A DNA stretch of 31,655 nt from a virus, in the IMG/VR virus record IMGVR_UViG_3300017759_000033, positions 1 to 31,655 of that record; one strand, 5' to 3'. The notes under the pieces were generated by a model. The model had not been told where the DNA came from. It ran no database searches and saw only the letters and a list, made by a program, of their open reading frames with translations. Shown piece by piece: positions 8,147-24,782 of this stretch. Numbering within the stretch: the first letter of the stretch is position 1; every line of letters begins with the position of its first letter. A program made the translations under genes and the position numbers.

Positions 8147-8165
8147 CACTGTACAGAAATACAGT
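8146..8165. promoter_or_regulatory. LexA-like (SOS) operator 1
   Basis: CTGT at 8149-8152 and ACAG at 8161-8164 are separated by exactly 8 bp, the spacing of the gammaproteobacterial LexA box. The 6-bp arms ACTGTA/TACAGT are perfect. Read on the - strand the dyad is followed by GTTATTTTTTT, so a reverse-strand terminator is the main alternative. The same arms recur at the start of element copy 2, with a different centre. Confidence 0.55.
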
Positions 8166-8512
8166 AGTTTTGTATTTTTCCAGAAAAAAAGCACCCATAC
8201 AAAGCTTGAATCGCCGATTCGCTGCTCTAGAGCTTTAATCGCCGATTTAGTATAAAAACGCTGTTTTAAGGCTTGTATGCTAGATTTAGGGTCGTGAAAC
8301 CCCGATTTTTATAGAAAAACCGCATTCTACGACTAAAAAGTGGCCTTCTAGGTATCTACAAGGCCGAATATGCTTTACAGGCCGTAAAACGATACCGATT
8401 CGAGGCTCAAATTTAGCCGATAAACGCTCCGGAGCATGTCCGTACTATATTGACACCATGTAAACCCGAGAATAACCTTTATCGAGATTTCGCCTTTTTA
8501 TGTCCTTTTTTT
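8148..8512 (+). ncRNA. Duplicated structured element, copy 1
   Basis: A non-coding stretch closely related to 24413-24780. Shared landmarks are the LexA-like dyad, GCCGATT at 8213, 8241 and (as CCCGATT) 8301, ACCGATT at 8394, the mini-hairpin AAAAC-GCT-GTTTT at 8255-8267, GATTTAGGGTCGT, CCGCATTCTACGAC, a hairpin at 8341-8366, and a right end reading CGCCTTTTTATGTCC plus a T-run. Spacings between the GCCGATT-type motifs (28, 60, 93) are identical in both copies. Stem differences from copy 2 are G-U or compensatory changes that keep pairing if the + strand is transcribed. No open frame spans it. A structured RNA is favoured; an origin-like or regulatory DNA array is the alternative. Confidence 0.55.
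8341..8366 (+). other. Conserved hairpin of element copy 1
   Basis: An imperfect stem of 10 Watson-Crick pairs plus one T-G wobble, with one C-C mismatch and a GTAT tetraloop. The equivalent hairpin in copy 2 (24609-24636) swaps a G-C pair (8343/8364) for C-G (24612/24633), a compensatory change. Confidence 0.6.
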
Positions 8513-8524
8513 CCTTCTTTCGAG

Positions 8525-8698
8525 TCAGATTTCGAATAATTTTATTTGTCTCGGCTCCGGAGGAGAGCTCGGTCTCTGGTTCAATCGCTCCGCGGCGAGA
8601 CGATTCAATTCGAATTGGAGCTTGGACATTCCTCGTTTCTTTCTCGGGAAATATACGATTTTTCCGTCTATTATTTTTGCTTGTATTTCCGTTTTCAT
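8525..8698 (-). CDS. Small reverse-strand protein, unknown
   Basis: A 57-residue protein on the - strand in the gap between element copy 1 and the capsid gene. It starts MKTEIQAKIIDGKIVYFPRK, has a helix with LQFELNRLAAERL, then a Pro-rich tail ending QIKLFEI. It is supported by AGGGG 6 nt before the ATG and by codons typical of this genome (GAG, CTC, GCC, CGA, CCG). It is basic and has no membrane span. I know no family. Like the exonuclease gene near copy 2, it is convergent with a structured element, its stop lying 12 bp from the element's right end. Its start is just 21 bp left of the capsid promoter -10, so it may be transcribed divergently. Confidence 0.55.
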   Translation of the reverse strand: MKTEIQAKIIDGKIVYFPRKKRGMSKLQFELNRLAAERLNQRPSSPPEPRQIKLFEI

Positions 8699-8716
8699 TT
8701 GCACCCCTTGAATCTA

Positions 8717-8725
8717 TGATATAAT
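8717..8725 (+). promoter_or_regulatory. Extended -10 promoter for the capsid gene
   Basis: TG-A-TATAAT: a perfect -10 hexamer (8720-8725) with the extended -10 TG. No good -35 is seen 16-18 bp upstream, as is usual for extended -10 promoters. The predicted leader to the capsid ATG is about 85 nt and holds a small hairpin (GGTT-CGC-AACC, 8747-8757), AT-rich DNA and an AGGTG ribosome-binding site. Confidence 0.65.
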
Positions 8726-8817
8726 ACAGATGAAATATATCGGGTAGGTTCGCAACCGTTAACAGCAGATGGGCCCCAAAGACAACGACGACAACCCCCA
8801 ATATATATAGGTGTAAC

Positions 8818-9768
8818 ATGCCATCAATCAGCCCAATTACATTCGGCAACATGGAAACAAATCTTAGACTCGCGGCAATGCTTAGCCAAGAGATTAACCT
8901 CCTTTTGACCGACTCCGCAAATCTCAGAAATAGCCCTTTTATGTCTTATCAAGGCTCCATTAATGGAAGTGGCTCCGATACCGTACGCGTGAGACTCGCC
9001 GGTCTTGGCCGTGATTCATTCGCCGCGGCAGATTCTGAAAACCACGACCACTCCGGAGATTTGACGTCTTTAACCGTACAATCCGCAGATCTTATAGCGG
9101 CTAGACAGTACTTGATTTACAAAATAGACGATCTCGCCTCGATGACCCGTTTGGACGGTGGTCCGGACATAGACCCTTTCAGAATCGCCCAAAGCATCGC
9201 CGCGTCCTACGATGTACGATTCGCCGAATTGTCTTGTGCAGCAGCAGCCGCGGCGACTACAATCAAGGGAAGCAACACGACAACGTTCTCCACAAATGAT
9301 TTTTTCAACGGAATATTTGCCCTCGAGACCGCCGATTCGGGACGTGGAGCAGATGGACCCTTTGCCGCCGTGCTCGATGGGAAGGCCTTAAGTGAGCTTC
9401 AGGACTCGCTCAGAGGAGAAACGGGGAATGCCGTGTCCAGAATGGCATCGAGCGCCGCTATGCTTGAGGCAAAAGGAAAAGGATACGCCGGCGAATTATT
9501 CGGTGTGCAGGTGTTCAGAAGCTCTCATGTCAAAGAAAACGCTTCATCTGGTTACGACAACTTTATGCTTGGACCCGACGGACTCGCTTATGTCGATGGC
9601 ATTCCCGATACAGTTCCAGGCGCGGTCGATCTTATGTCTATGGGTAAGGTAGCCGTCGAATTCGATCGCCGCCCAATGGAAGCGAGCGTGTTTGTCGTCG
9701 GTCACATGTACCTCGGATGCGGTATAATCGACGATACTCGACTCGTAAAAATCAATAGTGCTCGATAG
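8818..9768 (+). CDS. Major capsid protein (putative)
   Basis: A 316-residue protein that most likely forms the head shell with the HK97 fold. The N-terminal helix (METNLRLAAMLSQEINLLL) is followed by beta-rich segments; the middle shows AARQYLIYKIDD and a helix IAQSIAASYDVRFAELSCAAAAAA like a spine helix; the end is beta-rich, reading VAVEFDRRPMEASVFVVGHMYLG as in P- and A-domain strands. It has its own strong extended -10 promoter and AGGTG. Arg codons here are mostly AGA, CGT and CGC instead of the CGA typical of neighbours, which fits very high expression. It is followed by connector and tail genes. The call rests on these traits and on gene order. Confidence 0.85.
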   Translation: MPSISPITFGNMETNLRLAAMLSQEINLLLTDSANLRNSPFMSYQGSINGSGSDTVRVRLAGLGRDSFAAADSENHDHSGDLTSLTVQSADLIAARQYLIYKIDDLASMTRLDGGPDIDPFRIAQSIAASYDVRFAELSCAAAAAATTIKGSNTTTFSTNDFFNGIFALETADSGRGADGPFAAVLDGKALSELQDSLRGETGNAVSRMASSAAMLEAKGKGYAGELFGVQVFRSSHVKENASSGYDNFMLGPDGLAYVDGIPDTVPGAVDLMSMGKVAVEFDRRPMEASVFVVGHMYLGCGIIDDTRLVKINSAR

Positions 9769-9780
9769 ATTGTTTTGTCG

Positions 9781-9820
9781 GGAGACTCGCTCTATTTTTG
9801 GGTAGTCTCCTTATAGAGCG
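9781..9820 (+). other. Two interleaved inverted repeats after the capsid gene
   Basis: GGAGACT (9781-9787) pairs perfectly with AGTCTCC (9804-9810), and CGCTCTAT (9788-9795) pairs perfectly with ATAGAGCG (9813-9820). The arms interleave, so the two hairpins exclude each other or form a partial pseudoknot. No long T-tract follows. It could act as a switchable attenuator or protect the capsid message 3' end. Confidence 0.6.
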
Positions 9821-9836
9821 GTCTCTCGACTCACAA

Positions 9837-9845
9837 TCACCACCA
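9837..9845 (+). repeat. Degenerate G-free array unit
   Basis: ATCACCACC, one unit of the variant type seen at the ends of arrays R5 and R7, stands alone upstream of the 9868 gene. It may be a decayed eighth array. Confidence 0.3.
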
Positions 9846-9867
9846 TATAAAGGGGACTACTTGTATT

Positions 9868-10524
9868 ATGGATTATTCTAACTACGCTCAACCATGGCAA
9901 GAGACCCGAGCCCAACAGACTCGGATTCCAATAAAAGCCAACAGCCGATTTTTCTACGCTCACTATCCAGAGAATTGGGAGCTCGTTCACTTCGAGCAAA
10001 CTCTCAAAGAGGAAGGAAAAAAGCCAAAGAAAATCGAGATACCGCTATTTCTTCCGATGCTGTCTTCCATTCCAGAGGAGGCCGGAGTCAATGGATGTCG
10101 AGCGGTCGGAGGTCGAATCGACTCGTCGGTCCTCAAGGCCCAATTATCAAATAAGGGTTGGAGAATACTCGAGGCAAACCAACACGACTATATCCGAACG
10201 TATCCGGCGACCCGTGGAACATACTACACATCTAAATGGGTAAAATTGGAGAAGGTGGGCTCTCGAATCCTACACTCGTTTGACCAAGATTCCTTTAATG
10301 CTTGGAGACTCGAGCTCATGGCATCCGGAGCGATATCAATGCCACATCCTCAAATCATAAAGCTCAAATTGATTGACAACAATCGACAAATATCGAGTCT
10401 CGAGCAAAACCAACACATACCAGAAATCGCCGCCCGACTCAAAGCCGCCCAAAAACGACACACCGATATAAAAAAGGGAATTGCTCGCCTCGAGCGATAC
10501 AAGTCTAAGACATACAATATTTGA
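9868..10524 (+). CDS. Hypothetical protein next to the capsid gene
   Basis: A 218-residue soluble protein that I do not recognise. The first part is mixed alpha/beta (RFFYAHYPENWELVHFEQTL, then FLPMLSSIPEEAGVNG). The middle contains a Trp/Tyr-rich stretch (TYYTSKWVKLEKVG). The C-terminus (about 165-218) is a charged helix with many Lys, Arg and Gln. No catalytic motif or membrane span is visible. It lies directly after the major capsid gene, where phages often encode a head-completion or minor capsid protein. The AGGGG sequence is about 12 nt before the ATG, longer than ideal, so initiation may be modest. Codon use is typical of the genome. Confidence 0.7.
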   Translation: MDYSNYAQPWQETRAQQTRIPIKANSRFFYAHYPENWELVHFEQTLKEEGKKPKKIEIPLFLPMLSSIPEEAGVNGCRAVGGRIDSSVLKAQLSNKGWRILEANQHDYIRTYPATRGTYYTSKWVKLEKVGSRILHSFDQDSFNAWRLELMASGAISMPHPQIIKLKLIDNNRQISSLEQNQHIPEIAARLKAAQKRHTDIKKGIARLERYKSKTYNI

Positions 10525-10543
10525 TCAAAAAGTGTATGCCACT

Positions 10544-10556
10544 AGACCCGGACAAA
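10544..10556 (+). repeat. AGACCCGGACAAA 13-mer, copy c
   Basis: Exact copy in the gap before array R3, with the same 14-bp spacer length as copy b before R1 and a nearly identical spacer sequence. Confidence 0.65.
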
Positions 10557-10570
10557 GTAAAAAATAAATC

Positions 10571-10603
10571 TTATCACTACCATCACTACCATCACTACCA
10601 TCA
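10571..10603 (+). repeat. G-free 9-bp tandem array R3
   Basis: TT plus three ATCACTACC units plus ATCA. The last A is also the first base of the ATG of the next gene, so here the array itself occupies the ribosome-binding position. Confidence 0.95.
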
Positions 10604-10752
10604 TGAACAAACACCAACGAGAAAGAGACGCATTCAAACGCACGGCGCGACGGCTCCGAATAGGAACCGGAGACAAAATCACGCAATACGAAGCAGAGCG
10701 CAAACTCGACAAAATGATTAACGAATCCGAAAACAAAACAAAACGAGGTTAA
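10603..10752 (+). CDS. Small basic protein starting inside array R3
   Basis: A 49-residue protein, highly charged and basic (starts MNKHQRERDAFKRTARRLRI, ends NKTKRG). The ATG is formed by the last A of array R3 plus TG, leaving no room for a purine Shine-Dalgarno, since the 30 nt upstream contain no G. Either the array itself promotes initiation or translation is leaderless-like. The stop is 2 nt before the next start, whose ribosome-binding site (CGAGG) lies inside this gene. No family is recognised; the charge suggests nucleic-acid or capsid binding. It is supported by exact gap filling and typical codons. Confidence 0.55.
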   Translation: MNKHQRERDAFKRTARRLRIGTGDKITQYEAERKLDKMINESENKTKRG

Positions 10753-10754
10753 AA

Positions 10755-11081
10755 ATGGCATACACCGACCCTACACCATTCAAAATCCCAAGACGACTCG
10801 AGAACAAAGGCGGCGTCAATCCCGAGACAATTACGACCAATAGGACGTTAACATATTCAGATTCACAGTATCAATTGTTGAAAAATACAACCGGTACGCT
10901 TGACGTAATATTGCCGAGTTTTTCCGAAGGTGCACATTTTTGGATAAAAAGCCGAGCGTCTTCCTCCTCAAATATAGTAGTCAAAGACGGCACCGGAAAC
11001 ACATTGGCCACTTTAGGAGTCGGCGAAGCTGTTCTCGTCGTATCTTCCGATTCGGCGTGGTGGGACGTCATAAAGGCGTAA
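10755..11081 (+). CDS. Beta-rich virion protein (decoration-like)
   Basis: A 108-residue protein. From residue 27 it follows a pattern common in phage structural proteins: TTNRTLTYSDSQYQLLKNTTGTLDV-type start, ILPSFSEGAHFWI, NIVVKDGTGN, LATLGVGEAVLVVSSDSAWWDVI. This reads as a small beta barrel ending in an aromatic W-x-VI strand, found in decoration proteins and fibre domains. The ribosome-binding site is CGAGG. It lies between head and connector genes. A fibre base or decoration role is likely, without direct proof. Confidence 0.7.
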   Translation: MAYTDPTPFKIPRRLENKGGVNPETITTNRTLTYSDSQYQLLKNTTGTLDVILPSFSEGAHFWIKSRASSSSNIVVKDGTGNTLATLGVGEAVLVVSSDSAWWDVIKA

Positions 11082-11085
11082 TAAG

Positions 11086-11847
11086 ATGTCCGATATTCCC
11101 TATACTGCACAAATCCGAATAACCGAGCTTCTCGAGCGAGACAAAGCCCAAACGACCGAGCTTAAAGTCTTTCGAGACGGTCTCCAGATCGTCCCGAGCT
11201 CGGGAACATACACGCTAAAAAAGCCGACCGGCTCCGACATTGTGAGCTCCGGAGCTTTGACGATTGCAGTATCTGGAACAGCCAGTTATGCCCACACCTC
11301 CTCGGAGCTCGCCTCGACGCTTGCGCTTGGAGAGGGATATGTCCAAGAGTTCTCGCTCACAATCTCTGGCGAGGTTTTCATATTTCGCCGAATGTGTGCT
11401 CTCGTCCTTAGACGCTTATATCCGACCATCCAAGACGCAGATTTAACGGCGACATATAGCGATCTCGAGAGCTTGAGACCGAGCTCTCTAACATCGTATC
11501 AAAACTATATCGACGATGCATGGTATCAAATTTTGAGACGAATCAAAAATCAAGGTATGGGATACGAATATCTCGTTATGTCGCCGGAGTCTTTTTTCGA
11601 TGCACACCGACATTTGACGCTCTATCTAATATTCCGAGACTTCCATTCCTCTCTTAGTGCAGAGGGGCGATATATGGATTTGAGCTCCGAACATTATCGT
11701 TTGTATCGAGAGGAGTTCGACCAAATCTCGTTCACATACGACCAGAGCCACGATTTGACCGCCGACAATCCAGACAAACGCACTCGAGGACGTCCGACGA
11801 TATTCCTCTCGAGACGAGGACAGCATTATATGAGGCGTAGATATTAA
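11086..11847 (+). CDS. Head-tail connector or adaptor protein (putative)
   Basis: A 253-residue protein. Residues 1-100 form a beta domain (TTELKVFRDGLQIVPSSGTYTL and EFSLTISGEVFIFRR). Residues about 105-215 are helical (SLTSYQNYIDDAWYQILRRIKNQG, then HLTLYLIFRDFHSSL). The helical half resembles gp6/gp15-like head-tail adaptors that bind below the portal, which commonly carry a long D-x-x-Y-x-x-I helix. A basic tail ends in MRRRY. It is followed directly by the tail terminator candidate, fitting the usual order capsid, connector, terminator, tail tube. There is a 4-nt gap to the previous gene. Confidence 0.6.
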   Translation: MSDIPYTAQIRITELLERDKAQTTELKVFRDGLQIVPSSGTYTLKKPTGSDIVSSGALTIAVSGTASYAHTSSELASTLALGEGYVQEFSLTISGEVFIFRRMCALVLRRLYPTIQDADLTATYSDLESLRPSSLTSYQNYIDDAWYQILRRIKNQGMGYEYLVMSPESFFDAHRHLTLYLIFRDFHSSLSAEGRYMDLSSEHYRLYREEFDQISFTYDQSHDLTADNPDKRTRGRPTIFLSRRGQHYMRRRY

Positions 11848-12282
11848 ATGCCTTTATCAGTAGCCCAATTACGCGACGCGGTCTCGAGCCAAATCTCCTC
11901 GATTTCTGGTTATAAACAGATCCTAATGATTCCGGAGTATTTCTCACGGACTCCAAACACGCTCGCGCATAAGGCATATTCGGTCGGAGTCGATGTCTCA
12001 AACGCACAACCGGAGCGCCAGAGACGCGCAGTCGGTCTCGTCCTCGAGTCGGTCGTCCGAGTCCGTATCGCGTATCGGATACGACCCCACGACATATTAA
12101 CAGATTACAATGCCGCTCTCGATGCCGAGTCGGTCGTCGTCGGAAAAATACTCTCGTCCTACGCAACGATTAGAGACGGAGTCTCGATTCGGTTTGTACG
12201 CTCAAATCGGAGCGCTCCGGACTCGAGCGAATATTTGATCTCAGATATAGAATTTGCAGCAATACACACCCTAAGTTTTTAA
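11848..12282 (+). CDS. Tail terminator or neck protein (putative)
   Basis: A 144-residue alpha/beta protein starting directly after the previous stop. It has an N-terminal helix (LRDAVSSQISSISG), a strand region, a core with LVLESVVRVRIAYRIRPHDI, a helix ADYNAALDAE-like segment, and a C-terminal strand (FAAIHTLSF). The alternating helix-strand plan, the size and the place just before the major tail protein match tail terminator proteins, hexamers that cap the tail tube and join it to the head. There is no sequence-diagnostic motif, so this is positional inference supported by fold impression. Confidence 0.6.
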   Translation: MPLSVAQLRDAVSSQISSISGYKQILMIPEYFSRTPNTLAHKAYSVGVDVSNAQPERQRRAVGLVLESVVRVRIAYRIRPHDILTDYNAALDAESVVVGKILSSYATIRDGVSIRFVRSNRSAPDSSEYLISDIEFAAIHTLSF

Positions 12283-12293
12283 AGGAGTAAAAC

Positions 12294-12812
12294 ATGGCTT
12301 ACAGCTCAGTAATTAAGACTCGCCGCGACGGTAAAATCACACTCAAGGATCAAGGAGCGTCTAACACGCTCGAAATCAGCTACGAGGAAGGCAATTTGAC
12401 CATAGACGGCATCCAATCTCAAAAAAGCGGACAATCGGTCCTCAGAGATCGCGGCGTAGTCGTAAACGTCAGAAAATCCGACGATGAAGTAAGCTCCACC
12501 GGCTCTTTTTCGGCATATTTTAGACAATTTTCCGACGGAAGCGAGGCCGGCTCTCTCCTCGATTTTATCAATAAATCTGGAAGTTATTCCGGAAATACCT
12601 CGACCGGCTCCACAGGAACTCCTTTTATCGAGCAGTATTGTATCGATATACAATACGAGGTAGAGGGAACCGATTTCGGAGACGATGCAGATCACGCGGT
12701 CACAATGTCCAAATGTATTTGTACGGTATCATTCGCCGAATCCGATGCCGGCTCGACATTTACAATCAATTTCACCTCTTACGGAGGATTGGTCTTTAGT
12801 GGTCCAAGCTAA
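12294..12812 (+). CDS. Major tail (tube) protein
   Basis: A 172-residue, beta-rich protein with many Ser, Gly, Thr and Asp residues. It starts MAYSSVIKTRRDGKITLKDQ and contains the long strand segments NTLEISYEEGNLTI and EQYCIDIQYEVEG, ending TFTINFTSYGGLVFSG. The beta-sandwich character, size and position between the terminator candidate and the tail assembly chaperones fit the tube protein of siphoviruses. It has a good AAAGGAG ribosome-binding site. Its Arg codons are AGA and CGC with no CGA, unlike the neighbours, which supports high expression as for the capsid gene. Confidence 0.8.
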   Translation: MAYSSVIKTRRDGKITLKDQGASNTLEISYEEGNLTIDGIQSQKSGQSVLRDRGVVVNVRKSDDEVSSTGSFSAYFRQFSDGSEAGSLLDFINKSGSYSGNTSTGSTGTPFIEQYCIDIQYEVEGTDFGDDADHAVTMSKCICTVSFAESDAGSTFTINFTSYGGLVFSGPS

Positions 12813-12833
12813 ACACCGACAACAGGAGACTAC

Positions 12834-13205
12834 ATGAAAATAACACTAAAACGACTAGGAGGAGCACTCGAGACACGATGTCCAGATTTGGCGACGTGTT
12901 TCGAATTTGTCTCCTTGTGGAGTACAAACTCGAGCGACACCGCAGAGCTCGGGAGATTATGCGCCGGCGCAATTGGTGTGTCGATTGACCATTTGGCACG
13001 ATTGCCAAAATACAAACCCCAAATGCATAAGCCGAGCGCGTATGGACATATTTGTCTGAATCGGATGCTTGAGCTCAATATAACTCCAAGCGAGATATAT
13101 CAAGAGGGGATTAAATGTCTTACGGTCATGACGTCCAAAATTCCAACCGCCGCCGAGGTCACCGAAAAAGTAAATTTTTCGACCAAGGACGATCCGGACA
13201 TTTGA
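12834..13205 (+). CDS. Tail assembly chaperone, short form (G-like)
   Basis: A 123-residue protein between the major tail protein and the tape measure, the classical place of the lambda G/GT pair. The N-terminal strands (MKITLKRLGGALETRCPDLA) lead into a helical body (AELGRLCAGAIGVSIDHLARL). An overlapping -1 frame opens at its end, and the codons AAT TTT at 13173-13178, preceded by A, form the slippery heptamer A-AAT-TTT. Most ribosomes would end here at 13205, and a minority would shift to make the long form. GGAG lies 6 nt ahead of the ATG. Confidence 0.8.
   Translation: MKITLKRLGGALETRCPDLATCFEFVSLWSTNSSDTAELGRLCAGAIGVSIDHLARLPKYKPQMHKPSAYGHICLNRMLELNITPSEIYQEGIKCLTVMTSKIPTAAEVTEKVNFSTKDDPDI
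13172..13178 (+). other. Slippery heptamer for -1 frameshift
   Basis: AAATTTT, read in the zero frame as gtA AAT TTT, has the X-XXY-YYZ form needed for simultaneous -1 slippage. It lies inside the 91-nt overlap of the two frames and upstream of the zero-frame stop at 13205. A weak palindrome (GTCTCGAGAC) lies downstream, but no strong stimulatory stem is evident. Confidence 0.65.
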
Positions 13206-13390
13206 GTCTTCTCGCGCTCCGAGTCTCGAGACATTGGCATAAAGAGCCGAGATGGTTTGAGCAACAACCAAAAGACGTCCAAATCGATATAATCGCCGAA
13301 TACATACTCCACAACGAGACCCCCGAATCCAGAGAGGAACGTCGGAAAAAGTTTCAAAAGGAGTTAATGAGAAAATGGCAAAAAAAATAA
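13178..13390 (+). CDS. Tail assembly chaperone -1 extension (T-like)
   Basis: This is the downstream part of the frameshift product. After slippage at 13172-13178 the ribosome reads TTC GAC CAA and continues for 70 residues to the stop at 13388. The fusion would be about 185 residues: 115 from the zero frame plus this extension. The extension is helical and basic at its end (SREERRKKFQKELMRKWQKK), similar in nature to lambda T and its many analogues that bind the tape measure. The same frame has an ATG at 13115, but it has no ribosome-binding site and its first part only mirrors the zero frame. The stop overlaps the next gene. Confidence 0.7.
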   Translation, partial: FDQGRSGHLSLLALRVSRHWHKEPRWFEQQPKDVQIDIIAEYILHNETPESREERRKKFQKELMRKWQKK

Positions 13391-13944
13391 CGGTCAAATC
13401 GGGAGACGCCGAGGTCCAAATCTCGGACGATCTGAATCAACTTGTCGAGGATTTACTCGCCAAAGCCCTTCCGGAGACAAAAAAAGCGCTCGAATCCGAG
13501 CTCGAAAGAGTGTACGACAACGCCGTTAAAAATTGGCCGGTTCGGATGAATAGACCATTCACCGAGCGAGACAAATTCTATGCCCAAATTGCCAAACAGA
13601 GAAAGCTCGGCAAATCCAAAAAACAAGCCTACGCGATCGCCGCCTCGATGAAAGAGCGCGGAACGCTACCCCCGCCGAGACCATTCACTCCGACAGTATC
13701 CAAAGAGAGCGGAGACTCCAAAAGCAAATTGAGACGCGGCATCCGAATTCAATCCGGAGAAATCGTCGCTTTTGTGGAGAACGATGCCGAATATGCGTGG
13801 GCGATAAAAGCCGCTCGAGACTCGGTCGGAAATGTACCATATAAAAAACGAGTATCAAACGAGCTCCTATGGAAGCCGATTCGAAAAGCATCGGATAAAA
13901 TAGCTCAAAAGCTCGCCGCGGATTTGACTCGATCAATCAAATAA
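13375..13944 (+). CDS. Tail-associated protein, HK97 gp10-like (tentative)
   Basis: A 189-residue basic protein overlapping the chaperone extension by 16 nt. It begins with a short beta segment (KKITVKSGDAEVQISDDLNQ), a helix (LVEDLLAKALPETKKALESEL), then a region with RDKFYAQIAKQRKLGKSKKQ. The second half has LRRGIRIQSGEIVAFVENDAEYAWAIKAARDS-type sequence and a C-terminal helix. The RIQSGEIVAFVENDAEYA segment resembles the HK97 gp10-type neck or tail-completion family (strand, N-x-A-x-YA). Its location after the chaperones is slightly unusual for that family, so the assignment is tentative. Confidence 0.55.
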   Translation: MAKKITVKSGDAEVQISDDLNQLVEDLLAKALPETKKALESELERVYDNAVKNWPVRMNRPFTERDKFYAQIAKQRKLGKSKKQAYAIAASMKERGTLPPPRPFTPTVSKESGDSKSKLRRGIRIQSGEIVAFVENDAEYAWAIKAARDSVGNVPYKKRVSNELLWKPIRKASDKIAQKLAADLTRSIK

Positions 13945-13947
13945 TTC

Positions 13948-13986
13948 TTATCACCATCACTACCATCACTACCATCACTACCATCA
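13948..13986 (+). repeat. G-free tandem array R4 (longer variant)
   Basis: TT, a truncated 6-bp unit ATCACC, three full ATCACTACC units, then ATCA: 39 bp. The extra partial unit shows that copy number can vary. It begins 3 bp after the previous stop and ends 15 nt before the tape measure ATG. Confidence 0.95.
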
Positions 13987-16361: not shown

Positions 16362-19300
16362 ATGGCAAACACAACCCCCGAGTATATCCGCGGTTTTCTC
16401 ATTCCGCTTGATGTGGACACCGATAACATTTGGACCGCTCAATCAACATTCACAACATACGACAATTTCGCCGGCGACCCAACCCCCCAACAGACAAACC
16501 CGATGCGACTATACGCGACCGGACGACAGACCGCGAGCTCCGATTTGACAATCACGACACGCCGCGCAGGATATGCCGGATTTGGGGCCGGATTTACGTA
16601 CACCGACAATGCCGATGCCGGTACGATATACGGTCGAGACCCACAAAATCAAATCTCGTATTGGTCCTATGTAAAGAGCTCGTTCTCGGCGTCAATCAAA
16701 TATCTCAATCCAACCGGACTCGATGCCGGAGACGGAGACATATTAATTGCATACGGTCTCTCGAATACAGTTATGCCCAAATACGGAGTTTTTATCGTCA
16801 AACAGACACAGGACGGAACACAAACCACAAACGAGATATACTCGCAAACGACCGCAAACTCACAGGATTTTTATCCGGTTATGTGTACGCTCCAGAACGG
16901 CGAGTATCTCCTCGCACATTTGACACACGACGAGGACGACGAGGCCGCGACGCTCCGAACATATACGAGCACCGACGGCGAGACGTGGACCACGAGAAGC
17001 CGAGCCGCGCTCGAGAACCGAATCAACACCGGAACAGCAACGGGAACCGCGAGCATATACAATACGCACAACATCCAGAGAGTCCGAATCGCTCAGACAA
17101 ACGGAGTCATTCTCTTAATGATTGAGACGACGTGGAACAATACGAGCGCAACCAAGAGAAATCGGCTCCTACAATACGCAAGTTCGGACAACGGAGCGAC
17201 ATTCTCGCTCGTAACGACCGAGAGCGAAATTGACGACAATTCCTTTCACAGCATCCAATTGTATGCCACAAATGGACAATTCTCGTTTGCTTATATTGGA
17301 GCACTTGCCGAGACTCATTATATGCGGATTCCGCACGCGTACATGTCCGCACATCGACAACGTCAATCCGGCTCCTATGTCGTAGTAACACAAACGACCG
17401 CGGCAACAGGGACAAACGACTTTATGTCCGGAGGAGAGCTCGCCGCGTGGACCGACGAGCATTTCTCGAACCATGTTATTGTTCAAGCCGTCTTGCTCGC
17501 CGGTACATTCTACGAGTTTTACTCCGATAATTTCCTCGATTGGCGAGTAATGGGAAGCAATACAAACGGAAACGGACTTGTATTCCACTCCGGAGACAAT
17601 AGCTCGGACATTCAGAATTTCCACGCGTTCTCGGCTCTCGGTCGGTCGTTGTTGTTGTGCAAACCGAGCACGACAGCAACAAACACCGGCGCTCTAATGA
17701 TTGAGCTCGGAGGGTACGCGAATGTAACATTGCCAGAAACCAGAGGATACCGATTCGGAGCCGGTCTCGGAAATCCGCTCGCCGACTATGCGCGGATGTC
17801 GTTTGGAGACAATTTTATCGGGCATGATTTGTTTTCAAATTATAGCACATTGACCGCCGGAGGAGGTTCGGAGACACTCGGAGCCGACGGAGTCACAATC
17901 GGAGGAGGTCAAAAATATACGCGGAATATGGTTGTAGTTGGAACAACGTCTCAGATCGTCGGAATTGGGATAATCGCTCGAGCTCGTTTGAAGGCGAGCA
18001 CCGGAGGAGGATTGACCGGCTCAGAAATCCGCGGTCTTGAGCTCAAGATCGACGACACGAGCACCGATTATAATGTACAAATCCGAATTACTCCGAATTC
18101 GATGTCGGTCTATGATTTGAATGCCGGAGCACAGGCCGCAAGTCTCACCGGTTTGACGCTAAACAACGGAGTCGAGCTCATTATCGGATTCTCAAGCGGA
18201 AAAATCGATGTTTGGATGCGCGAGACCGGAACGCAGAGCGCAAGACGCAAATATACAAAGGCATTCACGCTCTCGGGATTGACCGCCGGCTCCGGAGGAG
18301 CGAGCAATGTCCAATCACTTGTTATTGGAAATTTGGCGTATTCCTCCGGAACATTGACAACGGTCGTCCAAGAATTCCATGTCGCCAACGCGATAAACAT
18401 CGGAGAAAACCTCCATTCGTTCTCGAGTCCGGACGATTTACAAACGAGAGCATACCCGAGCTCGGAGAAATTCGCCTATATACACGACAATGTATCGATA
18501 TCGGCGACAGACGGTCCAACCTACGAAGGAGACGAATTTAAAGTCTTGCCGACGAGCTCGACACCGATTGAAAACATCTTTTACAATGTGTCTCCGACTC
18601 CTCGGATTCCGTGGAAAAGTCAAAGTGTGAGCGCCGGAGCAAATGTCGCCGAGCAATTTATCGCAATCAAATTAGACTCAGATACGAGCGTACACATAGA
18701 CGAGTCTCTCCCGAATGACATCCTCGGACTCCATCTCAACAATTACAATTTCCGGACAGCTCGGCTCGAATACTATTCGTCCGGTTCTTGGACGGTCCTC
18801 GACACATTCCAATGTGCAATACTCACACAAGGGAATTCGCAAGGTCGGACGCTCCGAGGAGCGAGCGGAGCAAACGAGGAGCCGTATCTCCACTACAACG
18901 AATGCGAAGGTTGGTATGCCCACATTCAAACGGCATCCGGCTATGCATGGAGAAAGGTTGTCTCCAATTCCGAGGGAGTATTCGGAGGAACCTCGACGGG
19001 AACAAAACAAGCAGTTTTGACCCTAGACTCGAGTATCGTCGCGAGCTCCGGAGCGACGATATATTTGATACCCAAATCATTTACTTTATTGGTCAATTTG
19101 AACGGACGACGCGTCGAGGCGCTCGGACTCCGAATCACAACAAATACGAGCTACGACAATTATTTTCAAATTGGTACAATGGTTCTTGGTTCGGTTTTGG
19201 TAGCCGGCAAACAGTATCAGAGAGGACGCTCGATAATGATTGACTCGGGAACCGAGACCACAGAGACCGAGGATGGAATCGTTTATTCTCGCAACCAGAG

Positions 19301-19682
19301 ACCGAGCCGCCGCCGGTATCGTCTCGCATGGACAGAAGGTGTAGACATATCCAGACTCCAAGGCACGGACCCGACTCCAGACTATTGGAAATCGTCGAGC
19401 ACATCCGGAGCCGAGCCGATCGCAATACAAAACGATGTTCCCGATCTGTTACAAGGCCTATTGACGTATTTAAAAGGGAATACGAAGCCAATTGTATATA
19501 TTCCGCTAATCATACAAACGAGCGACACTCGAGAGCTCACCAGAGCAAAAGAACAGACACTCGTAACGCTCGAGAGCGAGGTCACAATCGAGCATACACT
19601 CGGAGACGAGCTCGTCAATATAAACGGCTCCGGAGGCGAAGTCTTTAGAGTAGCGACAATGTCTTTCTTGGAGGTGATTTGA
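16362..19682 (+). CDS. Large tail protein with sialidase-like propeller
   Basis: A 1106-residue beta-rich protein, the longest in the window. Residues about 1-430 resemble a beta-propeller with Asp-box turns: STDGETW near 202, SSDNGATF near 273, and a degenerate SDNFLDW near 387. Such BNR/Asp-box domains occur in sialidases and in sugar-binding phage tail proteins. The middle (about 500-680) reads like a concanavalin or LamG-type beta sandwich (GLELKIDDTSTDYNVQIRI, then ELIIGFSSGKIDVWMRE). The C-terminal third is beta-rich and ends in VFRVATMSFLEVI-type sequence just before the hub gene. A host-surface glycan-binding role is likely; catalytic residues were not identified. Confidence 0.7.
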   Translation: MANTTPEYIRGFLIPLDVDTDNIWTAQSTFTTYDNFAGDPTPQQTNPMRLYATGRQTASSDLTITTRRAGYAGFGAGFTYTDNADAGTIYGRDPQNQISYWSYVKSSFSASIKYLNPTGLDAGDGDILIAYGLSNTVMPKYGVFIVKQTQDGTQTTNEIYSQTTANSQDFYPVMCTLQNGEYLLAHLTHDEDDEAATLRTYTSTDGETWTTRSRAALENRINTGTATGTASIYNTHNIQRVRIAQTNGVILLMIETTWNNTSATKRNRLLQYASSDNGATFSLVTTESEIDDNSFHSIQLYATNGQFSFAYIGALAETHYMRIPHAYMSAHRQRQSGSYVVVTQTTAATGTNDFMSGGELAAWTDEHFSNHVIVQAVLLAGTFYEFYSDNFLDWRVMGSNTNGNGLVFHSGDNSSDIQNFHAFSALGRSLLLCKPSTTATNTGALMIELGGYANVTLPETRGYRFGAGLGNPLADYARMSFGDNFIGHDLFSNYSTLTAGGGSETLGADGVTIGGGQKYTRNMVVVGTTSQIVGIGIIARARLKASTGGGLTGSEIRGLELKIDDTSTDYNVQIRITPNSMSVYDLNAGAQAASLTGLTLNNGVELIIGFSSGKIDVWMRETGTQSARRKYTKAFTLSGLTAGSGGASNVQSLVIGNLAYSSGTLTTVVQEFHVANAINIGENLHSFSSPDDLQTRAYPSSEKFAYIHDNVSISATDGPTYEGDEFKVLPTSSTPIENIFYNVSPTPRIPWKSQSVSAGANVAEQFIAIKLDSDTSVHIDESLPNDILGLHLNNYNFRTARLEYYSSGSWTVLDTFQCAILTQGNSQGRTLRGASGANEEPYLHYNECEGWYAHIQTASGYAWRKVVSNSEGVFGGTSTGTKQAVLTLDSSIVASSGATIYLIPKSFTLLVNLNGRRVEALGLRITTNTSYDNYFQIGTMVLGSVLVAGKQYQRGRSIMIDSGTETTETEDGIVYSRNQRPSRRRYRLAWTEGVDISRLQGTDPTPDYWKSSSTSGAEPIAIQNDVPDLLQGLLTYLKGNTKPIVYIPLIIQTSDTRELTRAKEQTLVTLESEVTIEHTLGDELVNINGSGGEVFRVATMSFLEVI

Positions 19683-21412
19683 TGAGATACTATAGCGCCG
19701 ACGAATATGTCGATACAGACATCGTTTTTCTCCTCGAAATCGAGTATATCGGAAGGACATATCGATTTTCATCGTATCCGCTCACATTGACGGACGGAGA
19801 CGCCGAAATTCTATACGAGGGAGGACTCGAGGAGCCGGCATTCGACCAAGAGCTCGGACGAATCGGAGCGCTCCAGACATCGAGCTCGAATGTATCGCTC
19901 GCATTGACATTCCCTTTTAATGTCGCAGTGAGACAAATCAAAGGAAAAGGAATCGAGCGCTCGAGAGCGACATTGTATTATGTTCTGAGCAAATCCGGAC
20001 GAATCCAACAAACCCAAGACCAAAGAATACCGATTTTCTCCGGAGTCGTCACAGATCCGATTTATGGACATCCAGATCGAGAGCTTGGATATGTGGAATT
20101 CTCAATCGAAAACGAAATTGTTATTAATGACTCGTCGCTCCTCGGTCTTATATGTGGAGAAGTGCTTTTCTTGGAGAAAGCCGCTTACTCCGAGCCGCCG
20201 ACCGCTCCGACGATTGTCAACACACCTCCAAAAGATCCCGACGGCATAATCGACGTTCTCGACGTCCACAAGGGAAAAGCCGTCCCCGCTATTATAGGCA
20301 GCGCCGGCGCGGTATATGGTCAAAATGCAACATTGACGAGCGCCGGTTCGACACCGGCTTATTTGATCGCATATGAAAACGTAGGACCAGATTATCCGGC
20401 ATGGTACGTTATCGCCGGTCACAATGTCGTAGCCGATACCGTCAAAATGTACGACAACCAAGGCAATTCGGAGAACGGTCTCTCAGTCGGACAGTATATC
20501 GGAGCCCGTGGAGACGCATATTCGTTTGTTCGATTGGTCGCCTCGACACCGATTGACCGCTCGTTTGTAGCGAACAATGATCGCGAATATTGGATTGAAT
20601 GGAACCAAGCCGGCGGACTCGTCAATCCGACCGGCTCCGGAGCGCTCGAGCTTGGAGGAGACATCATAATTTGGGCTCTCGAGTCTCTCGGCATCACATA
20701 CGACCGCGAGCAATGGAACGCAGTTCGAGACGCGTTGAACGAGTACAAATTCGCCGGATACATAAACGACCCGAATTTAAAATGTTTTGAATGGATACAA
20801 TCGAACATTATCGCCTATTTGCCCGTAACAGTCGCCGCCGGTCCAAATGGTCTATATCCCATAATAGACGCCCGAATCGATACAATCCAAACAAAAGCGA
20901 GACTAAGAGTCACCAACTCGAGCGAATTTCGCCGAGTCTCTCCGATTTCTCCGATTGACAGCGAGCTCGTTAATACTTTGACTGTTCGATTTGGTCCTCG
21001 AGGCAACGGAGCCGAGCAAGATACATACATGTCGTATGCAAAAATATCGTATAACCCCCCCGACCAAGCGGATGCCCGATTCGAGCTTTTGTCTCCATAC
21101 TCGATCGTCTCGTATCAGAGATTCGGAGAACAATCCGAGGTTATAAATCTCGACTTTGTTTATGACATGGAAACCGCCTCGAGAATTGCAGCGAACCAAA
21201 TAAAAACGCGAGCGCTACCGGAGAAAAAAATCACATATCGAGCCGCATTCCGATTTGGATTTCTTGAGCTCGGAGACATTGTCGAGCTCACAGACTCGGA
21301 GCTCGGTCTCGAGGAATATCGAGCTCAAATATGCGGCAAACGATATGCCGGTCGGTCTTGGGAATATGATATATTGTTTTCAGAAAATCCAATCGACAAC
21401 TCGAGACCGTAA
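19682..21412 (+). CDS. Tail hub or baseplate protein (putative)
   Basis: A 576-residue beta-rich protein. The ATG at 19682 overlaps the previous stop (TGATG) and has a very strong GGAGGTGA 4-5 nt upstream; the TTG directly before it is not needed. The N-terminal 150 residues (DIVFLLEIEYIGRTYRFSS, IPIFSGVVTDPIYGHPDREL) resemble the start of gp27/J-type hub proteins. The middle holds a Gly-rich beta domain with a helical insertion (ALNEYKFAGYINDPNLKCFEWI). The C-terminus has RTRALPEKK-like then FLELGDIVELTD, a pattern I associate with phage tail hub and DUF2163-like proteins. It probably forms the tail tip with the 16362 product. Confidence 0.7.
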   Translation: MRYYSADEYVDTDIVFLLEIEYIGRTYRFSSYPLTLTDGDAEILYEGGLEEPAFDQELGRIGALQTSSSNVSLALTFPFNVAVRQIKGKGIERSRATLYYVLSKSGRIQQTQDQRIPIFSGVVTDPIYGHPDRELGYVEFSIENEIVINDSSLLGLICGEVLFLEKAAYSEPPTAPTIVNTPPKDPDGIIDVLDVHKGKAVPAIIGSAGAVYGQNATLTSAGSTPAYLIAYENVGPDYPAWYVIAGHNVVADTVKMYDNQGNSENGLSVGQYIGARGDAYSFVRLVASTPIDRSFVANNDREYWIEWNQAGGLVNPTGSGALELGGDIIIWALESLGITYDREQWNAVRDALNEYKFAGYINDPNLKCFEWIQSNIIAYLPVTVAAGPNGLYPIIDARIDTIQTKARLRVTNSSEFRRVSPISPIDSELVNTLTVRFGPRGNGAEQDTYMSYAKISYNPPDQADARFELLSPYSIVSYQRFGEQSEVINLDFVYDMETASRIAANQIKTRALPEKKITYRAAFRFGFLELGDIVELTDSELGLEEYRAQICGKRYAGRSWEYDILFSENPIDNSRP

Positions 21413-21480
21413 TATCAGAAATACGGCGTATCATTATCACTACCATCACTACCATCACTACCATCACCGGAGCGCCAGAC
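21413..21480 (+). promoter_or_regulatory. Leader of the lysis module with array R6
   Basis: A short gap with AAATACGGCGTATCAT directly upstream of array R6. GGCGTATCAT also stands before R2, and AAATACGGC before R7. The ribosome-binding block CCGGAGCGCCAGAC precedes the ATG at 21481. Confidence 0.5.
21434..21466 (+). repeat. G-free 9-bp tandem array R6
   Basis: TT plus three exact ATCACTACC units plus ATCA, then CCGGAG. The start codon is 14 nt downstream. Confidence 0.95.
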
Positions 21481-22092
21481 ATGAACCGAATCGAAACCAA
21501 AGAACGTCCAACCATTCTCGACCGAGTCGAATCGTTCGGATTTCGCGTATTTGACGAGCCGAATTTTGACTTGAACATTATCGGAGTTCGACGCATGTCC
21601 AACAGACAACACAACGAATTCGACGATGCAATCCATGTTTGTTATCGGATGCTAGATTTCTGGGTCGAGGAGTGGGGACCGGCGACGACAGATCCAGGCT
21701 CCTATTGGCTCACAAAACCAGACTACAAACCATGCGCTATATATTACCACCCACAGCAAGCGCGCGGAGCGTATCAAATCGGTTTTCACCGTGGAAATTC
21801 GTCTCATGAATGCTTAAAACAGGTCCGCCCCGTGAAATTTTGGCGCGACTCAAACAAAGACGAACACGCAGACTATGCCGGATTTGTACACAAAGATTTG
21901 ATTGGTCTCAATATCCACCGTAGCTCGACACGTCCGGAAGGGAGCCATTTTGTCGATAAGTACAGCGCCGGATGTCAGGTTTTCAAGTACGCTCGAGACT
22001 TGAAGCGCTTGATTGAGCTCTGTAAACTCCAAATCGAACATCATCCGAATTGGGCGAAAGAATTTACTTATACATTGATTTCGGAGGAGTAA
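21481..22092 (+). CDS. Probable cell-wall enzyme (L,D-transpeptidase-like fold)
   Basis: A 203-residue protein without a signal peptide. Residues about 130-165 contain GLNIHRSSTRPEGSHF then DKYSAGCQVF, i.e. a HxxS...SAGCQ pattern like the catalytic HxxG...SxGC region of YkuD-type L,D-transpeptidases and of some phage peptidoglycan hydrolases. The remainder has mixed alpha/beta with many Trp and Tyr residues. It begins a new leader after the tail module and is followed, with overlapping stop/start, by a holin-like protein, so an endolysin role is reasonable. A tail-associated wall-degrading enzyme is possible too. The catalytic reading is from the motif only. Confidence 0.55.
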   Translation: MNRIETKERPTILDRVESFGFRVFDEPNFDLNIIGVRRMSNRQHNEFDDAIHVCYRMLDFWVEEWGPATTDPGSYWLTKPDYKPCAIYYHPQQARGAYQIGFHRGNSSHECLKQVRPVKFWRDSNKDEHADYAGFVHKDLIGLNIHRSSTRPEGSHFVDKYSAGCQVFKYARDLKRLIELCKLQIEHHPNWAKEFTYTLISEE

Positions 22093-22454
22093 TGGACCCG
22101 AGCACAATACACGATTTATGGTTAAATTTGGCAACGAATAGCCCGTTCTTGGCATTCGTAATATACAATTGGTATCAACAAACCAAACAAATAGAGCTCT
22201 ATCGGCAAGAAATGAAAAAGGACCGAGACGAATACGAACAGAAACGAGAAGATGCCATCGAGAAAATACGACAGAGATACATTGTCGTTATAGACGAGCT
22301 CAAGAGCGACCAAGAAAATTCGGTACAAAACCGACTCGCAACTCTTGAGAAAAGCATTCGGAAATTGTTCGCCAGCGTCGAGGACATGAAAAAAATCAAA
22401 ACGATTGTCGAGGAGCTCAGACTCAAAGAACAGATTCGAGAGCATCAAAAATGA
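22092..22454 (+). CDS. Holin- or spanin-like membrane coiled-coil protein
   Basis: A 120-residue protein. The ATG overlaps the preceding stop (TAATG) and GGAGG lies 5 nt before it. Residues about 8-27 are hydrophobic (LNLATNSPFLAFVIYNWY), enough for one membrane span; the rest is a highly charged coiled coil (about 30-120) rich in Glu, Lys and Arg. This layout resembles BhlA/UviB-type small holins and also inner-membrane spanins. Its coupling to the putative cell-wall enzyme supports a lysis role. It ends with ATGA overlap into the methyltransferase gene. Confidence 0.6.
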   Translation: MDPSTIHDLWLNLATNSPFLAFVIYNWYQQTKQIELYRQEMKKDRDEYEQKREDAIEKIRQRYIVVIDELKSDQENSVQNRLATLEKSIRKLFASVEDMKKIKTIVEELRLKEQIREHQK

Positions 22455-23110
22455 TACAATATTACAATATCGATTGCATGGAAGCGCTCAAAAAGGCCCC
22501 CAATAATCATTGGGATTTGGCAATCGTCGATCCGCCGTATGGAATACATGAAAAGCTATTGACGAGCACACCAGAGCCCAACAACTCGAACAAATTCGCG
22601 CTCCGATACATGGAAAAAAACTGGGACCACCAAAGACCAACCGCGGAGTATTTCTCCGAGCTCCAAAGAGTCTCAAAAAATCAAATAATCTGGGGAGGAA
22701 ATTATTTTGCTGATTTGCTACCACCTTCTCGAGGCTGGATATGCTGGGACAAAATGCAAGATAAATTTACATGCCTTAACAACGAGCTCGCATGGACGAG
22801 CTTTGATGTCGGTTTGAAAATGTTTCGCAGATTGCGAGCCTTAGACATTGGTTTTATGGTTCGGAAAGCACATCAAGAATTTGTACATCCGACACAGAAA
22901 CCACTAGAATTGTACATATTTTGTCTCGAGCAGTACACCAAGACCAATCGAGCTCGAATCCTCGACACACACCTCGGAGCCGGCTCTATTGGTCTTGCAT
23001 GCTACGACCTCGGATATACTCTCGACGGATTCGAAATCGACAAAGATTATTTTGACGCTGCACAAAATCGACTTGATGTCTATCGCAGACAATTAAAGCT
23101 ATTCGGATAA
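22451..23110 (+). CDS. DNA adenine or N4-cytosine methyltransferase
   Basis: A 219-residue amino-methyltransferase. Catalytic motif IV, DPPYG, is near residues 27-31 (AIVDPPYG). Downstream are a short recognition region and HPTQKPLELY, then SAM-binding motif I as ILDTHLGAGSIGLACYDLGY near 175, followed by DGFEIDKDYFDAA. The order (IV before I) is that of the beta class, which modifies the exocyclic amino group of A or C. Length is typical for compact phage orphan enzymes, and no restriction partner is nearby. It probably protects phage DNA or marks it for packaging or regulation. The target sequence cannot be told from sequence. Confidence 0.93.
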   Translation: MIQYYNIDCMEALKKAPNNHWDLAIVDPPYGIHEKLLTSTPEPNNSNKFALRYMEKNWDHQRPTAEYFSELQRVSKNQIIWGGNYFADLLPPSRGWICWDKMQDKFTCLNNELAWTSFDVGLKMFRRLRALDIGFMVRKAHQEFVHPTQKPLELYIFCLEQYTKTNRARILDTHLGAGSIGLACYDLGYTLDGFEIDKDYFDAAQNRLDVYRRQLKLFG

Positions 23111-23111
23111 A

Positions 23112-24032
23112 ATGAGAAAAGTAACAATCGGCTCTTTATTTAGTGGAATTGGAGGATTCGAGCTCGGCGCACAAATGGCATTTGAGAGCGCCGGCATTCC
23201 GCACGAGGTTTTGTTCCAAGCCGAGCAAAACAAATATTGTCAATCTATTTTAAAAAAACATTGGCCAAATGTGCCAATATTTGACGATGTTCGGTCGGTA
23301 GGTAGACAAAATGTAAACTCGCCCGATATATTAATCGGAGGATTTCCATGTCAATCCATTTCTGTATGTGGAGAATTGCGAGGTTTGAGCGATGAAAAAA
23401 AGTCCGGTCTTTGGTTTGAAATGTTGCGAATTATTAGCGAGCTTCGACCCGCATTCGTCGTCGTTGAGAATGTCGCAAATGCGATTAGATTGGGCGGACC
23501 CGCTATTATTGGAGGCTTTGCCGAGCTCGGGTATAATGCAGAATGGGAAATTGTATCGGCTCGCCAACTCGGAGCGCCGCACCTCCGGAGACGCTGGTTT
23601 TGTATCGCTACCGACTCCGACCGCATCCGACTACAAACGACGAGGACCAAACAGCAAACAGCAAGGACTCTCGAATGTGGAGAATTGGGCTCATTTGTTG
23701 CCAACTCCGACCGTACGAATATACAAAGACAATCCAAGCACTCCGAGCGCGTGGAAACGCAAAACAGATTTAAATGTGGAAGTGGCAAAATTGAGCGGAA
23801 AAAATCAAAAAACTATTGGAAAAAAGGACCGCCTGTCGCCCCACTTTGTAGCGTGGATGATGGGATTCCCGATAGAGTGGCTCGATTGAAAGCGCTCGGG
23901 AATGCGATTGTTCCACAATGCGCCGAGTATATTTTCAACAAATTAATTCATTCCTCGATATTTCTCGATACAATAGGAATGCCGGAAAAATTGACCGGCG
24001 AGGAAAAACGGCGAGAGCAAAAATCATCATAA
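23112..24032 (+). CDS. DNA cytosine-5 methyltransferase
   Basis: A 306-residue C5 enzyme with all main motifs: I FSGIGGFELG (residues 10-19), IV GFPCQS with the catalytic Cys near 79, VI VVVENV near 120, VIII RQLGAPHLRRRW near 154-165, and the C-terminal RLKALGNAIVPQ motif (IX/X region). The target recognition stretch between (about 170-250) is short, Arg/Ser/Thr-rich and of unusual composition because a second gene is encoded in the +1 frame over 23392-23889. It follows the DPPY enzyme by 1 nt, so the two are co-expressed. Its role is probably evasion of host restriction. Confidence 0.93.
   Translation: MRKVTIGSLFSGIGGFELGAQMAFESAGIPHEVLFQAEQNKYCQSILKKHWPNVPIFDDVRSVGRQNVNSPDILIGGFPCQSISVCGELRGLSDEKKSGLWFEMLRIISELRPAFVVVENVANAIRLGGPAIIGGFAELGYNAEWEIVSARQLGAPHLRRRWFCIATDSDRIRLQTTRTKQQTARTLECGELGSFVANSDRTNIQRQSKHSERVETQNRFKCGSGKIERKKSKNYWKKGPPVAPLCSVDDGIPDRVARLKALGNAIVPQCAEYIFNKLIHSSIFLDTIGMPEKLTGEEKRREQKSS
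23392..23889 (+). CDS. Overprinted gene inside the C5 methyltransferase
   Basis: A 165-residue protein in the +1 frame, fully inside the C5 methyltransferase gene. The order of motifs is SSSLRMSQ, then PSSGIMQNGKLYRL, then LPTPTASDYKRRG, a second LPTPTV, and finally FVAWMMGFPIEWLD. I recognise this series (SGMMxNG, PTPTxxD, W(L/M)MGFPxxW) from short phage and metagenomic proteins of unknown function. GAGG lies 8 nt before the ATG. The motifs coincide with conserved ones of the other frame: LPTPT over ATDSD and VANSD, and WMMGFP over the VDDGIPDRV segment. Finding a full motif series in a random frame is very unlikely, so it is probably expressed or was once the main frame. Confidence 0.6.
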   Translation: MKKSPVFGLKCCELLASFDPHSSSLRMSQMRLDWADPLLLEALPSSGIMQNGKLYRLANSERRTSGDAGFVSLPTPTASDYKRRGPNSKQQGLSNVENWAHLLPTPTVRIYKDNPSTPSAWKRKTDLNVEVAKLSGKNQKTIGKKDRLSPHFVAWMMGFPIEWLD

Positions 24033-24062
24033 TGATTTTTCTCTCTTTTCTTTTGAGTCTAT

Positions 24063-24314
24063 ATGCTACCGGAAAAACTACCCCCCGAGACAATAATATT
24101 AGAGCCCCAAAAAATATTGAATAAGGCAATTGTCAAATTCGATGCAGTTTTGTATTATTCGTATTCAAAATTAATTGATTGCTATGTCGAAATTTTCACA
24201 GACCCGGACAAATGTCCAAACGAAATTTATCGGATGTCGGTCGAATGGATTTCGTACAATATTGAAAATTGTCACATCGAATATTGGCCAATATTAATTT
24301 ATGACGACGAATAA
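24063..24314 (+). CDS. Small acidic protein, unknown
   Basis: An 83-residue acidic protein (about 16 Asp/Glu against 7 Lys/Arg), starting MLPEKLPPETIILEPQKI and ending EYWPILIYDDE, with several Tyr and Trp. It has no membrane span and no motif I know. Compact acidic phage proteins next to methyltransferases are sometimes DNA mimics or anti-restriction proteins, but nothing specific shows it. The ribosome-binding site is weak (GAGT). Codon use has fewer CGA and GAG than neighbours. The gene carries a 13-mer copy that encodes part of Thr-Asp-Pro-Asp-Lys, just as in the small terminase. It is the last gene before element copy 2. Confidence 0.6.
   Translation: MLPEKLPPETIILEPQKILNKAIVKFDAVLYYSYSKLIDCYVEIFTDPDKCPNEIYRMSVEWISYNIENCHIEYWPILIYDDE
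24200..24212 (+). repeat. AGACCCGGACAAA 13-mer, copy e
   Basis: Exact copy inside the small acidic gene, in the same reading frame (within Thr-Asp-Pro-Asp-Lys) as copy a. Confidence 0.4.
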
Positions 24315-24412
24315 TTTCGTAAAAAAAGAGGGACACTTTTTCCAAAAATAAGACAAATTTTTTTTTCGTGTACGACGATTTTTTCTTTTGTAAGAAAATG
24401 TCTCCAAAAAAA
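24315..24412. other. AT-rich gap before element copy 2
   Basis: T-rich runs follow the acidic gene (TTTTTTTTCG and GATTTTTTCTTTTG), then A-tracts up to the dyad. No gene, repeat or clean terminator stem was found. Confidence 0.4.
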
Positions 24413-24414
24413 CA

Positions 24415-24434
24415 TACTGTACATCTTTACAGTA
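24415..24434. promoter_or_regulatory. LexA-like (SOS) operator 2
   Basis: TACTGT-N8-ACAGTA matches the gammaproteobacterial LexA consensus at all conserved arm positions. The full dyad is a perfect 9-bp inverted repeat with a 6-bp centre (24413-24436). On the - strand it is followed by seven T, so it could instead be a terminator for the exonuclease transcript. Both functions may coexist. Confidence 0.6.
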
Positions 24435-24608
24435 TGTAACAAGAAAACAGTGAAAAAAAGCACCGATACAGAGCGTATATCGCCGATTCACCCCTACAGA
24501 CTCCGAATAGCCGATTTGGTATAAAAACGCTGTTTTACGGCTTGTATAAACGATTTAGGGTCGTAGAACGCCGATTTCAACACAAAAACCGCATTCTACG
24601 ACAAAAAA

Positions 24609-24636
24609 GTGCCCTTGTAGGTACCTAGAACGGCAC
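24609..24636 (+). other. Conserved hairpin of element copy 2
   Basis: Imperfect stem with GTAC loop, 10 Watson-Crick pairs and two mismatches (C-C and G-G). It corresponds pair by pair to 8341-8366, including one compensatory swap and one change between G-U and A-U pairs. Confidence 0.6.
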
Positions 24637-24782
24637 AACCTTAAAAGAGAGCGTATTTCGATACCGATTCCGGCTCCAAATTTCGCCGCTATACAACTTG
24701 TCAATGTTCCGTGGTGTATTGACACACCGTAAAGCCGAGAACAGCCTTTATCGAGAATTCGCCTTTTTATGTCCTTTTTTAT

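Follow-up and report, generated by a model that had tools for sequence, protein, structure and literature searches.

A duplicated non-coding element behind the two leftward genes of a phage, tentatively read as a shared 3′ untranslated tail with its own terminator

Two related non-coding regions, e1 and e2, were found in the virus record of 31,655 bases analysed here (the window, meaning that whole stretch of DNA), each trailing a leftward gene where it converges on a rightward one, and both in identical orientation (Table 1). The reading that we favour, tentatively and with a confidence that falls somewhat short of even, is that the element constitutes the 3′-terminal untranslated part of the phage's two leftward transcripts and carries a built-in terminator. 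The gene order is that of a tailed phage, with terminase, portal, fibre, capsid, tape measure, endolysin-like, methyltransferase and replication genes. Judging from the ORF lists and from related phages, only a 57-aa ORF and a DnaQ-like exonuclease gene seem to lie on the minus strand of this phage, and e1 and e2, respectively, are found at their ends. e1 is located in the late region ahead of the capsid gene, where its T7 (8137-8143) overlaps the 3′ end of the convergent plus-strand gene, while e2 is near the replication genes.

Table 1. Positions of the element copies, their hairpins, the flanking genes and the leader features (window coordinates unless a relative is named).
Feature	Position	Strand	Description	Basis or context
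Copy 1 (e1)	8137..8532	minus	leftward, from stop codon of the 57-aa ORF to hairpin + T7	homology to e2, strand arguments
Copy 2 (e2)	24406..24801	minus	leftward, from last codons of the exonuclease gene to hairpin + T7	homology to e1
Terminator-shaped hairpin, e1	8137..8166	minus	TACTGTA-N6-TACAGTG, then TTATTTTTTT U-tract	"LexA operator" of the first-pass annotation
Terminator-shaped hairpin, e2	24406..24437	minus	ACATACTGTA-N6-TACAGTATGT, then TTTTTT	"LexA operator" of the first-pass annotation
Hairpin H1, e1	8340..8367	minus	one compensatory G-C to C-G exchange relative to e2	
Hairpin H2, e1	8291..8333	minus		folding prediction
Hairpin H1, e2	24609..24636	minus		folding prediction
Hairpin H2, e2	24560..24602	minus	18 pairs	folding prediction
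57-aa ORF	8525..8698	minus	ends at e1	many relatives have a homologue ahead of the major capsid gene
DnaQ-like exonuclease gene	24783..25376	minus	ends at e2	relatives with 38-41% identity
Convergent gene, basic, PHROG 220-like	7802..8146	plus	stop codon (8144-8146) abuts e1	
Convergent ORF, 83 aa	24063..24314	plus	ends about 90 nt before e2	no PHROG match
Capsid leader hairpin in relatives	L022:8767, L026:8690, L039:8327, L063:8311			
CACTACCAT leader copies	4078, 7194, 10575, 13952, 16316, 21438, 31311			

The homology of the two copies, on which blastn and nhmmer were concordant, is clear. The sole other blastn match of e1 in the whole record was e2 (77% over about 354 nt, E-values of 1e-67 to 3e-68), and a query of 8140-8530 returned, itself aside, 24452-24789 only (77%, E 1e-67). 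The core of the alignment (8183-8532 and 24452-24801) comprises 350 columns with no gaps and 89 substitutions, corresponding to 75% identity. On the left, the similarity ends at an A7 run (8137-8143 and 24406-24412), slightly beyond the boundary drawn in the first-pass annotation, and on the right it extends into the last few codons of both flanking minus-strand genes. That annotation had described two related non-coding regions, each beginning with CTGT-N8-ACAG, holding GCCGATT-type motifs spaced at 28, 60 and 93, and ending with CTTTTTATGTCC plus a T-run, and all of these features are indeed present in both copies. A coding role of the element was rejected, since no frame is open across both copies and the substitutions fall on the three codon positions without periodicity (34/30/25). 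A type III toxin-antitoxin RNA was also considered and rejected, as the motifs are only loosely repeated and no toxin gene was recognised adjoining either copy.

The 89 substitutions are unevenly spread. Their variance among 20-nt windows was 11.8, compared with 3.6 after shuffling, and none of 5000 shuffles reached a value as high; the longest identical runs were 23, 19, 19, 13 and 13 bases. Since uniform drift would not give such clumping, blocks of the element look to be under constraint. Some conserved blocks have no predicted structure, for example GTATAAAAACGCTGTTTTA and TTCGCCTTTTTATGTCCTTTTTT on the plus strand. A terminator does not account for them, and they could be where a partner binds, whether to the RNA or to the DNA.

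The palindrome that begins each copy had been interpreted as a LexA operator, so that the element would be a structured RNA under control of the host SOS response. CTGT-N8-ACAG, of which the window holds two occurrences, one starting each copy, against 0.22 expected in shuffled sequences, is close to the E. coli SOS-box consensus, and may or may not correspond to the LexA motif of the phage's host. The two sites amount effectively to one event because the copies are homologous. On the minus strand, the same palindrome has the form of an intrinsic terminator, i.e. a stable hairpin directly before a U-tract, in both copies, with the T-run following within 0-4 nt (Table 1). The hairpins were predicted to fold at -8.5 kcal/mol (z -4.7) in e1 and -11.5 kcal/mol (z -3.4) in e2, and both stems are poor in G+C. 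A terminator scan picked the e2 hairpin independently, and a looser genome-wide scan listed both, that of e1 at -7.1. The palindrome is thus better read as a minus-strand terminator than as an SOS operator: on the leftward reading it would close the RNA at its 3′ end, a position typical of terminators but not of operators.

A rightward non-coding RNA from a LexA-controlled promoter is, in our estimation, very unlikely. It would account for the position of the palindrome at the start of both copies, and the rightward folds of the single copies are somewhat more stable than chance (z -2.0 and -2.7). However, the scan gave no sigma-70-like promoter near either palindrome, and the first 16-17 nt to its right, where the -10 region would be expected, are unconserved between e1 and e2. 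No hairpin was detected on the plus strand ahead of the T-run at the far end, and the leftward terminator accounts for the same palindrome. The proposed SOS control was therefore not sustained by the promoter scan, and the strand asymmetry points leftward instead. An SOS-operator-like palindrome of this kind is a tempting error, which is corrected by reading the opposite strand as a terminator.

Part of the element also bears marks of conserved RNA structure, as supported by the folding models. RNAalifold applied to the pair of copies including the palindrome gave z -3.9 on the minus strand versus -2.2 on the plus strand; for the core alone, the values were -2.75 (2 of 300 shuffles) and -1.04. 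Structure beyond chance on the minus strand was limited to a module of about 100 nt (8283-8382; z -5.56 minus, 0 of 200 shuffles, versus -3.44 plus), in which two corresponding hairpins, H1 and H2, were predicted for e1 and for e2, with conserved blocks that are unpaired on either side of the module. Plus-strand windows starting from 8308 and 8333, which overlap the module, reached z -4.0 and -4.4, so that a fold on the plus strand is possible too. Of the cells at paired positions in the module alignment, 92.9% can pair on the minus strand versus 85.7% on the plus strand, where the lower value arises because several minus-strand wobble pairs turn into A-C mismatches. A single pair in the module shows a compensatory change, which in an alignment of two sequences is by itself not significant. 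Helix-wise covariation over the whole element, likewise from two sequences, was not beyond chance on either strand (minus, 8 versus 5.8 in shuffles, sd 2.6; plus, 1 versus 3.7). A fold of the full-length RNA was rejected, since outside the module no minus-strand fold was better than chance. The earlier description of a structured RNA is thus supported for the module and not for the element over its whole length. A further difference between the copies was observed in the inner part of H1, where a symmetric mismatch is changed from C.C to G.G as if the arms of the loop had been inverted, an outcome to be expected of template switching within a hairpin.

Three features point to a leftward orientation of the element: the minus-strand hairpin with its T7, the wobble (G-U) pairs that occur on that strand, and the fact that e1 and e2 both start at the stop codon of a minus-strand gene. 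Polymerase that has passed the 57-aa ORF or the exonuclease gene would read on through the element and stop at the hairpin, and this stop would shield the opposing plus-strand operons from leftward read-through. The tail of 340 nt may act as a structured 3′ UTR, for stability or end protection; it may also be released as a small RNA, with the conserved unpaired blocks binding RNA or protein. One shared partner, or a need shared by the leftward transcripts, could be the reason why the same tail is found behind two unrelated genes. Placement, orientation, constraint, the shape of the terminator and the two-hairpin module argue for this leftward RNA, and from these we infer its transcription, termination and effect. 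Against it stand most of the conserved blocks, which are not explained by RNA folding, the A+T-rich stems of the terminator hairpins, the plus-strand windows with z near -4, and the fact that a terminator alone needs no 340 nt. No minus-strand promoter ahead of the exonuclease gene passed the scan. It is possible, though on the unlikely side, that the element represents a phage RNA of a new class: encoded as the 3′ tail that both leftward units have in common, it would be set free and exert its effect in trans, on the host or on the phage, having a two-hairpin core and, for binding sites, the conserved unpaired blocks.

The conserved blocks without RNA structure would also suit an element that works at the DNA level between convergent operons, either as an insulator or as an array of protein-binding sites made up of the GCCGATT motifs, A-tracts and inverted repeats, and serving as a transcription barrier or a site for a phage protein. 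The gapless 350 nt with identical motif spacing and the location of both copies at convergent junctions agree with such an element, but the wobble pairs and the hairpin with its T-run are strand-asymmetric, and the spacings of 28, 60 and 93 correspond to no whole helical turns. We regard it as unlikely. The first-pass annotation had named a replication or packaging site as its alternative, and no support for this was found. The short inverted and direct repeats, together with the closeness of e2 to replication genes, could fit an origin, a packaging site or a recombination site present in two copies, yet e1 lies among the late genes, ahead of that for the capsid, with no GC-skew inflection, no integrase or recombinase was recognised among the proteins scanned, and packaging from two sites at a distance of 16 kb should split the genome; this explanation is highly improbable.

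In order to look for relatives of the element, related loci were collected from IMG/VR, 80 by alignment of the terminase and 80 more by the capsid, with some records in both sets. The phage family is uncultured and large, with well over 100 IMG/VR contigs (L018-L220). The terminase and portal of this phage had no match by tblastn in 50,697 GenBank phage records. In one relative, G025 (L133, L134), a 99-bp direct terminal repeat (C1:1-99 and 28251-28349) indicates that the assembly, of about 28.2 kb, may be circular and complete, and hence the window is probably near complete. The search for homologues returned no relative of the element: none was found by nhmmer in the related loci (about 140 viral contigs) or in 50 whole records, and none by blastn in GenBank phages and plasmids. 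Pattern scans of viral contigs and genomes were equally negative, the 15 contig hits being unrelated, mostly coding matches to a single 18-mer. A related terminase occurs in a MAG, and a scan of 385 genomes from the class to which that MAG belongs gave one chance match of 22 nt. No covariance model of Rfam, including those of GOLLD, ROOL, group I and II introns and riboswitches, matched the element up to an E-value of 5. The 9-nt leader repeat described below was tried as a probe for close relatives and found only unrelated, mostly repeat-coding stretches.

The 57-aa ORF (39-45% identity) and the exonuclease (38-41%) are kept in many relatives without the element behind them, and the equivalent junctions there hold compact terminators (e.g. 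G002, L152 and L160) or overlapping genes (e.g. G011). The element was probably gained in the lineage of this phage, an estimate based on relatives whose terminase identity is at most about 70%. Near-identical records may be hidden from these searches, and the nearest relative, L021, has a terminase 84% identical on a contig of only 4 kb. Absence at both places from all related phages examined, as well as the 25% difference between the copies, could also be explained by two insertions, into tolerant convergent junctions, of a sequence that is now drifting and that was either mobile but non-autonomous or acquired horizontally. We consider this quite unlikely, as there are no clean terminal repeats, the similarity extends beyond the A7G / T-run pair at either end into the flanking genes, conservation is strongly clumped, orientation and position are alike behind both leftward genes, and no third copy occurs in the phage, the related contigs or the collections searched. 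A MITE or an IS200/IS605-type element in particular was rejected, since there are no clean shared ends and no further copies in the collections searched.

Other candidate regulatory elements were observed in the same phage. Upstream of the major capsid gene, in its 5′ leader, a short hairpin (window 8740-8772) closes with a TCGCN loop and precedes the motif AGC(A/T)GA, which is almost invariant. This hairpin covaries in 43 distinct sequences, with the stems CGG/CCG, TGG/CCA, GGG/CCC, GGTT/AACC and AGG/CCT, and had no match in Rfam for the five sequences scanned; it is a candidate for a family-wide leader element of the capsid mRNA. The -10 region of the capsid promoter (window 8715-8735) reads TATGATATAATAC, and TATGCTATACTAG in relatives (L032, L147 and others). 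It is almost symmetric and may, like bidirectional promoters, also direct transcription to the left, into the 57-aa gene. A second leader, consisting of 3 to 4 CACTACCAT units, occurs in seven copies, in most cases immediately ahead of a ribosome-binding site with its ATG, and a variant is present at the same place in L021. As it contains no G, it should be unstructured, and it is possibly a translation enhancer.

If the leftward reading is true, this small phage devotes more than 2% of its genome to one shared tail on both transcripts. For a phage, this would be an uncommon way of employing a 3′ UTR, and it would offer a test case either for how convergent operons are protected or for a common RNA that acts in trans. 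Within the literature consulted, no other duplicated tail common to two unrelated phage genes is known to us. The intrinsic (Rho-independent) terminators at the convergent gene ends of the relatives resemble the element in location and in having a hairpin with a T-run, whereas they are compact, often G+C-rich and a few tens of bases in size, the element being about ten times longer. GOLLD and ROOL are RNAs that occur in or near phages, and the element is like them in its phage setting, in its length, in not coding for protein and in the conservation of structure. In comparison with these large ornate non-coding RNAs (PMC12286853), it is shorter, is structured over about 100 nt and had no Rfam match even at an E-value of 5. 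Small RNAs derived from 3′ UTRs are described in bacteria (e.g. PMC9731577), and one of them, CisR, acts on phage CTXphi (PMC13250501). They are similar to the RNA proposed here in that the candidate would end at the terminator of a coding gene, while in our case it would be phage-encoded, duplicated and of no known family. The 3′ UTR of hilD in Salmonella, an example of a long bacterial 3′ UTR, is 310 nt (PMC4027200), and thus an untranslated tail of similar length behind a coding gene. The tail proposed here differs from the hilD case in that it occurs twice, each time after a different phage gene, and these genes are unrelated.
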